Source: Tubiluchus corallicola | Taxonomy: Eukaryota > Priapulida > Priapulimorpha > Priapulimorphida > Tubiluchidae | Direction: 5' to 3' | Assembly: GCA_030141605.1 (NCBI GenBank) | Contig: JAQGDQ010000520.1 | Coordinates: forward strand, 1-64,000 | DNA length: 64,000 nucleotides | Shown: positions 39,901-42,900 of the stretch, in pieces | Position numbering within the stretch: position 1 is the first letter of the stretch | Layout: each line of letters starts with the position of its first letter | Program-made: the position numbers and the translations under genes | Notes under the pieces: model-generated | What the model saw: only the letters and a program-made list of their open reading frames with translations | What the model was told of the DNA's origin: nothing | Database searches by the model: none

Positions 39901-42900
39901 AACCTAAAGATGTGCCATTACTCAGTGATAAGTGCAATTTTTGCTTTGTGTGATCACTTGCCTAACGTACACTAAGGCCGTGTTTTTTTCAGTTGTCTGC
40001 AATGGTCTTGCACATGCTACCTGACATATGGCCTGATGCCATCTCTGATATCATACAGGCATTCAACCCACACAACATGCCTCAGATAAATGTAAGTAGG
40101 GATGTTAAAGGATCCAAATTTAGCAATATGGTAACGATGCGATACCTTTTTTCCAACTATACAATATCGGTAATCTGTTTTTGAGATGATATTACATGAT
40201 ACAATAAATTGTTTTGGATGACAAAAACTATACTGAACATGTTTTTAGTTATTGTGCAAGGTATTTCGGTGTATTGTAACGCTGTATTTTTGCTGCTGTT
40301 TCCCGATTAATGCATAGATACATGTAATCTATGACAAAGTTCTCTTCTTTGTTTAGTCATAAAATAATATTAATATGTAATCTACAACAGACAAATATAT
40401 TACGTTTTCATGTATTACTATATAATATATTTATTTATGCGAGCTGCACTGTCTGTGCATGACTGAGAAAATGCCTCTAAAAACACCGCACTTGGCATTC
40501 ACATGTCACTAAATCGGCTGAAGACAACTGCTATTGCAGAAAGGAAGTTCTATGAGATTATTCAAACAGCTATAAATGACTCTTTGTTTAATTCCCGTGC
40601 ATAAGTGGAAAAGCAAAGGTGAAATGATTTTATAAAAATGAGCGATAAGCAGCGTATAAGAATACATTCCAAATTCGATACAATAACGATAGAAACAACT
40701 TTTCTATATTGATATGATAACCGACATGATATCGATGTGTGTTGTTATCGTTAACATCCCTAAATGTTAGCATCATTTTTAAGTGCTCTTATCTTATCTG
40801 GAATTTCAGAAATGTGCACTTTTACAAGTATTCGTTTATTAGTTGCGTAACCCTTTGATTGCAAAGTACAATAAATAATTTTAGTTATATTAAATTTTTA
40901 CACATTTGCTTTTGACCCCTGTTTGGCTGTGTTCTCTTTAATGGAAATGCTGCTGTTATAACCAATAGTGCACAAGCTACACTAATTTAGCGACTGAAAA
41001 AATATAGCAAAGTTTTGCATATAAAGTACTAAATAAGCACTTTCTTAAACTGCAAACAGGCATGTTGACGGGGCATTTCTGGAGCATGTAGTACTTAATC
41101 AGCCAAAAGTGTAAAAATTAAGCTATAGGATGTTTGTTATGTTTGCAAAATGTAGCTGTTTGCTCACTAGTTATTTGATATTGGGCCATAATACCAACTT
41201 CATCGGTATTTGTCTTTCTGTGTTTGTTTTTTTTGGCAAATATTAGCTTGTTAGCAGCGATTTTTAGATAGCTTTAATGTTCTAAGAATGAGGCAACTAA
41301 AAGATTTGACCAGAACTTGTTAATACATGCTGTGCAAATACTTGTTGTCATCATTATATAGCAGCTTTTTGTGAAACATAGCTTTTGTAGATTGTCAAAA
41401 TAATTATGGCTTTTTGGTGAAAATTGTTCATTTCACCATTGTGTCTCTAGATCAGTAGCAAACTCTAGCTTTCTTGTAATGAGATAATCCTGATTTCGCT
41501 AAGGCGTTTATTAATGCTTTGATTATTAATTATTATTTATCACCTTAAACGTCTTCTTAAAACACTTGTTTATTAAAATACTTTTTTCAGCCCACTCAGG
41601 CATGTTGTGTCCTGCTAGAGATACTGAAGGTGCTACCAGAAGAGGTAACAACTATTTAATATTATTATTATAACTGTTATTGTTGTTATTATCATTGTTA
41701 TTATTATTATTATTATTATTATTATTATTATTATTATTATTATTATTATTATTATTATTATTATTATTATTATTATTATTATCATTATTATTATTACTTG
41801 TTGTTGCTGCCGTTTTAACCTTTAGTTATCCTGTAGTTATTTTAGGTAAAATCATGAGCTGATTATCGGACTAATTGCTAGGAAATAATTAATGTATTAT
41901 GATAACTTATTTACAGCGTGTTTATTAATTACTGATATTTGCCTTAGAATATTTTTTTGTCTCTGAAGTTCATGAACTAGCATGCTGTGAATGCATGAAT
42001 GAAGGCTTATGAAGCAGCTAAATTATTTATTAAGTGGTTATTGTAGATTATGATACTTTTTCTACGTTGCTCTTTAAAAAGTGTCCAGGAACGTATTGGC
42101 TTCATTGGCCTCTATAGTCTGTTTCACACCTTGCTGGTACACATTTGTCAATGGCTTGAGAAAAGTCTTCTACTTTCCTGAATAGCGAATTCATACTAGA
42201 CAAGACAGTGCAAGCTGAAATCCAGCACTCAATGGCGGAGCCTACGTAACCTGTATAATTGTGGCAAGACTAGTATTTAGTTAATTATCAATGCTAATCC
42301 TTTAGGGTGAGCTACTGAACCAGTATAGGTGTTTCTTCATATATCAGTGCATCCTCCCTTGGTTAGGTAAACTATCAAAAATTAATTCAGTATGGCAGGT
42401 GAACCCAAAGCAAATATTGAACATGAACGCGTCCGTCACGCAACAATTCTTGAACAGCATCAATGTGCCTTGACTTCAGTCATTAGGTTGACACCATGAC
42501 CACTTGGCTATTCATCTCTGTCAGTGCGATGTAAGAAAGGCTGGATAGCTCACTTAGCCCACACTTAGAATAAATTATGTTTAGTTTATTAAAGTTACAC
42601 GAAACACGAAGTAATTTTAGTTTTTTTGAATAGTTTATGACCTGCCATCTTTTGTCATCTAGACGTGCTGTACTTCGCAATACACTTTGTGATAACCTTA
42701 GACATGGTAAGTAGACAGCAGCAGATATGTAATAGTGCTTTTGCTAGTACAGTAATTCCTCGCTTAACGACTCCCATTTAGCGATGTTTCGATTTTTTGT
42801 TTTATCAACTTCTTTACCTAATTTGAGGCATTAAACTCTATATGTTGCATTATTCTGTTCCAAAAATGCATTAGTAACATAAACAGTGCAATTGTTATTT

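Follow-up and report, generated by a model that had tools for sequence, protein, structure and literature searches.

A Ds element inserted into a maize exon reportedly made a de novo intron, a case that Giroux et al. are said to have described in 1994. Among introners, target duplications were present in 49 of 130 ascertainable families, and in some families the duplication is the source of the 5′ splice site, according to the accessible text of Gozashti et al. 2022 (PMC9860276). Introners with target duplications were also found in Huff et al. 2016, as described in the available sections of a paper on stwintrons (PMC12403724), which itself reports no target duplications in those sections. In excerpts of two further papers, a Drosophila gene carries an intron made by a retrotransposon, with duplications lying at or close to the borders of that intron (PMC3296678), and a model set out in a review has a duplicated AGGT supplying both splice sites (PMC3443670).

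The importin-13 locus described here resembles introners in that the target duplication left by a DNA transposon would provide a splice site. However, unlike introners, it is very probably an existing intron that has been enlarged at its donor end, and the element holds no acceptor. The locus also resembles the maize Ds intron in that a hAT element would be spliced out with the help of border sequence, but the Ds exon insertion became an intron, whereas in importin-13 an existing donor was duplicated. No described case of a hAT duplication lying over an existing donor was found in the accessible parts of the open-licence literature, and we make no claim that such a case is unreported.

An insertion at the exon 5/intron 5 border of importin-13

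The window (the whole stretch of DNA that was analysed, 64,000 nucleotides) contains an importin-13 gene with the following features at and around the insertion.

33905..33943, importin-13 exon 1, identified by eye from the human N-terminal sequence
35013..35131, importin-13 exon 2, identified by eye from the human N-terminal sequence
39993..40091, plus strand, importin-13 coding exon 5, with acceptor ttttttcag and ending CCT CAG ATA AAT before GTAAG, from alignment to PDB 2x19
40089..40096, plus strand, left target-site duplication AATGTAAG, comprising the last codon of exon 5 (AAT) and intron positions +1 to +5 (GTAAG)
40092..40097, plus strand, working 5′ splice site GTAAGT as predicted by frame and U1 pairing, with +6 (T) contributed by the outermost base of the element
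40092..41590, plus strand, intron 5, 1499 nt, of which the element makes up the 666 nt adjoining the donor, with the acceptor outside the element
40097..40762, plus strand, non-autonomous hAT-like element of 666 bp, which the family alignment and an end-to-end profile match show to be full length
40097..40108, plus strand, left terminal inverted repeat TAGGGATGTTAA
40751..40762, minus strand, right terminal inverted repeat, reading TAGGGATGTTAA on that strand
40763..40770, plus strand, right target-site duplication AATGTTAG, a poor donor copy within intron 5
41591..41644, plus strand, importin-13 exon 6, phase 0, starting CCC ACT CAG

The peptide joined from exons 3-6 aligned over all 106 residues with both human importin-13 (PDB 2x19, E 1.7e-29) and Cadmus (PDB 2x1g, E 2.5e-22), which were the only two distinct sequences matched. 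In the importin-13 alignment the exon 5/6 joint, QIN/PTQ, is in phase (phase 0); several of the exon ends were set by eye. Exons 1 and 2 were recognised by comparison with the N-terminus of human importin-13 and, since both can be read upstream, the numbering of exon 5 is correct.

Both terminal inverted repeats (TIRs) of the element are 12 nt long and 100% complementary. AATGTAAG and AATGTTAG are equal at 7/8 positions, not 8/8. Two random window 8-mers differed at no more than one position in 154 of 200,000 draws (0.00077), and had no more than two mismatches in 0.7% of draws. Given this low chance of a match and the 8-bp duplications found across the family (see below), the 7/8 match at importin-13 is a genuine target duplication. 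The initial annotation had proposed a mobile-element insertion at this border, with an 8-bp duplication spanning the donor of exon 5 of importin-13 and the gene still read in phase. The alignments and the two upstream exons uphold its reading of the gene, whilst the sequence, the 12-bp TIRs and the duplications of other family copies bear out the insertion and its coordinates. A DNA search of the 343.5-Mb own genome for an empty site or allelic copy, using the exon 5 and intron 5 flanks (247 and 898 bases), returned only the flanks themselves, so that the genome holds no near-identical second copy or haplotype that could serve as an empty site.

The element family, its label and its age

The element belongs to a family with at least 48 matches in its own genome, the window copy included and some loci being split into more than one piece; the figure is a minimum, as 40 of 204 candidates were scored. 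The 14-base left end, TAGGGATGTTAAAC, was found at 63 exact places in the genome, as against 0 for the reversed control, the window copy not being amongst them as its 14th base differs. Fifty of these 63 places were examined (30 + 20 loci) and 13 were left out. If ends decay by about 15% per site, the family would, as a rough figure, number several hundred copies. A TIR pair with no more than two mismatches in the 8-bp duplication was present at 22 of 39 loci found by BLAST and at 23 of 50 found by TIR pattern, where the best-scoring choice was kept if several TIR pairs were available, and mismatch counts are therefore not unbiased. The other loci (17/39 and 27/50) did not have both ends with a good duplication under the thresholds used. 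Some loci are common to both samples (L050 and L017 are one place, as are L053 and L014) and duplicates occur; together the samples yielded 40 distinct TIR-duplication pairs, leaving out the window copy.

The family majority consensus is 683 bp long. Both it and the target PWM were built only from copies with no more than two duplication mismatches, and L022 was left out of the consensus alignment and the PWM as a duplicate of L023. These two loci are on different contigs and share the same ends, duplication and 12-base flanks, which may reflect a duplicated segment or a haplotype retained in the assembly. L051 and L052 are two left ends on one contig, separated by about 15 kb and on opposite strands; their 12-base flanks are identical, which points to an inverted duplication or an assembly effect. 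The consensus begins with T, whereas 3 of the 22 good-duplication copies (L022, L023, L044) begin with C. One further locus, L034 (left flank CTTACCTG), was considered as a second splice-junction insertion; its flanks were not coding by eye and it was taken as chance.

The first 8 bases (TAGGGATG) of the TAGGGATGTTAA ends are as in maize Ac. Maize Ac/Ds have the ends C/TAGGGATGAAA and make 8-bp target duplications, according to the available part of PMC3260210. Given the shared TAGGGATG and the 8-bp duplication length, a non-autonomous, Ac-like hAT is the best label and a likely one, drawn from the ends and the duplication length only; the hAT assignment made in the initial annotation stands at that strength. 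Like Ac/Ds, the family has 8-bp duplications, TAGGGATG at its ends and short non-autonomous copies. However, the inverted repeat of the family continues TTAA and that of Ac/Ds AAA, the family consensus is another sequence, and the host, judging by its genes, is an animal. No transposase was recognised by eye among the 25 longest frames beside family left ends.

Target duplications of hAT elements show a weak preference for nTnnnnAn. In the 40 family pairs, T at position 2 has a frequency of 0.45 and A at position 7 one of 0.42, and the importin-13 site has A at both. The preference of the family is likewise weak, running roughly C-Y-T-N-A-A-A. As a family target, AATGTAAG has a PWM score of 1.0 (family median 1.09), which is above 87% of window 8-mers.

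Compared with a consensus built from 21 other copies, the window copy shows 69 transitions and 22 transversions over 640 sites, a divergence of 14.2% (K2P 0.16). Divergences of the 22 copies run from 11.8 to 18.8%, and that of the window copy is the seventh lowest. Only the 21 other copies contributed to the consensus, so that their divergences are biased low relative to that of the window copy. A divergence of about 14% from the consensus indicates that the insertion is old. Two unconstrained copies of that age would be expected to differ at about 2 of the 8 duplication positions and 1 difference is seen; the left copy is probably under constraint. Because the insertion is old, related species may share the element, and its presence there would not refute an insertion. 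The same 680 bp in distant relatives, which had been put forward as a refutation, is thus a weak test.

Donor strength and the course of the insertion

The left donor has a U1 duplex energy of -4.9 kcal/mol, equal to that of the exon 4 donor (-4.9). The corresponding value is -0.4 kcal/mol for the right duplication copy and -4.3 kcal/mol for the empty donor if that read AATGTAAGC. The 17 other importin-13 donors, a small yardstick from one gene with the exon 1 donor left out, range from -4.1 to -9.7 kcal/mol, placing the left donor near the weak end on a measure that ignores enhancers. It is an ordinary but rather weak donor. Past the left copy the reading frame runs into a stop at 40182-40184, and use of the right donor would therefore retain the element in the mRNA and truncate importin-13. 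Phase, the stop in the alternative and U1 pairing suggest that the upstream donor is very probably the one used and that importin-13 splices normally.

We consider it highly probable (about 0.88) that an Ac-like hAT inserted by cut-and-paste at the exon 5/intron 5 junction, that the upstream donor is still spliced, and that the insertion is near-neutral and old. The element, non-autonomous and Ac-like, would have entered the junction through a staggered cut that duplicated AATGTAAG, and the sequence shows a copy of the junction on both sides. The upstream copy keeps the exon end, GT and the AAG at +3 to +5, with the T of the element taking +6, and the old junction copy thus lies 674 bp downstream of a consensus GTAAGT donor. 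The spliceosome would use this upstream donor and excise the element together with the remainder of the intron, and the protein would be unchanged, as phase, stop and U1 pairing indicate. The downstream copy, free of selection, appears to have changed from A to T at +3 (GTTAG), and is now a very poor donor; the difference is observed, and its direction is the presumed one. The donor energies agree with what had been claimed of the two copies, namely that the left is a usable donor with its +6 base from the element (GTAAG, then T) and that the right has decayed to GTTAG. With the upstream donor kept and the protein unchanged, the insertion would be close to neutral, and its age by divergence points to long persistence. 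This account implies a pre-insertion site reading ..CAGATAAATGTAAGCATC.., and the ancestral site, judging from the present copies, was likely AATGTAAG with C at +6. If the pre-insertion site read AATGTTAGCATC, the left copy would have improved afterwards.

It is also conceivable, though unlikely, that the insertion improved a weak AAT/GTAAGC donor (+6 C to T) and that this gain aided its retention, in which case TAGGG hAT ends could more generally complete donors after GTRAG. No register closer to the exon than a landing after GTRAG would preserve the +3 to +6 consensus of the exon 5 donor. That the element merely landed 3′ of the donor without duplicating it, the resemblance of the 8-mers being due to chance, is scarcely credible: one of the eight positions does differ between AATGTAAG and AATGTTAG, but window 8-mers within one change of AATGTAAG have a frequency of only 0.00075, family copies bear 8-bp duplications directly outside the same TIRs, and the perfect TIRs fix the ends of the element and leave no freedom of register. 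An introner-type birth, in which the element created intron 5 and the duplication provided its donor, would fit the position of the importin-13 donor in the left duplication, given that some introner families take their 5′ splice site from there (PMC9860276, accessible text). However, an introner spans the whole intron and brings or recruits both splice sites, whereas this element covers only 666 of the 1499 nt of intron 5 and the acceptor, at 41590, is 828 nt past the element end. Moreover, no exon begins at the right duplication. Rescuing this origin, which we regard as highly improbable, would take a later shift of the acceptor. A stwintron, in which an inner intron splits a donor, was considered because the element parts +5 from +6, and was rejected since no inner acceptor was identified at the right end of the element.

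The position could also reflect a preference of the family for exon-intron donors rather than chance. The importin-13 duplication is a typical family target and, at the 17 other donors, duplications ending at +1 (z 5.2), +2 (z 2.8), +5 (z 1.9) and +8 (z 1.9) score above background under the family PWM, the remaining registers being +3 (z -3.9), +4 (z 1.1), +6 (z 0.5) and +7 (z -1.6). A mild donor preference is therefore possible, on scores that come from the donors of one gene, one of whose coordinates (45595) is one base short, and from a PWM of 40 sites. However, GTRAG-TAGGGATG occurs at 11 exact places in the genome (6 for the reversed-pattern control), and the importin-13 site is the sole BLAST family match amongst them. 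This search covered both ends and both strands for intact motifs, and misses most decayed copies and all other registers. One identical flank was present at 4 of the 11 places. As regards family copies serving as introns with splice sites at their borders, 1 of the 11 is thus a family copy, a count that holds for the exact GTRAG register only. Furthermore, GTRAG is found on either strand in only 1 of the 40 other family duplications. These counts give no sign of, or support for, donor targeting by the family, which we consider very unlikely to explain the position. If the family has several hundred members and the 343-Mb genome 100-200 thousand donors (an assumed figure), a rough estimate gives one to a few donor-spanning insertions prior to selection, and less than one in the exact register seen here. 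With this expectation and the introner precedent (accessible text of PMC9860276), the rarity and significance implied by the initial annotation are not borne out.

Reach of the duplication and surrounding sequence

With the greater part of the splice signal contained in the duplication, an insertion at the most harmful spot would be nearly silent. The locus illustrates cleanly, in a natural setting, how a gene can be protected by a target-site duplication when an element lands on a junction. This protection likely has a limit, as one base nearer the exon the donor would lose the G at +5; with donors derived per register, a landing just past intron position +1 gives GTAGGG. The importin-13 case is a neat and illustrative example of a known phenomenon, and by itself opens no new question.

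Intron 4 contains a left-end piece (37474-37867) and a right-end piece (39546-39776) of the element family, on the same strand and about 1.7 kb apart. With the element in intron 5, exon 5 thus has family sequence to either side. The two pieces were considered as one nested copy; their outer 8-mers differ, and a single insertion with an intact duplication is unsupported. Between them, at 38670-38897, lie about two tandem units of 122 bp with an 80% match, and looser copies of the unit extend by eye to about 39340. GC content is higher between 28001 and 32000. Retroelement-like frames, with reverse transcriptase and integrase-like pieces recognised by eye, are found on the minus strand at 29158-32899, and a frame at 11654-12265, also on the minus strand, resembles by eye a homeobox protein of the Six1/2 type.
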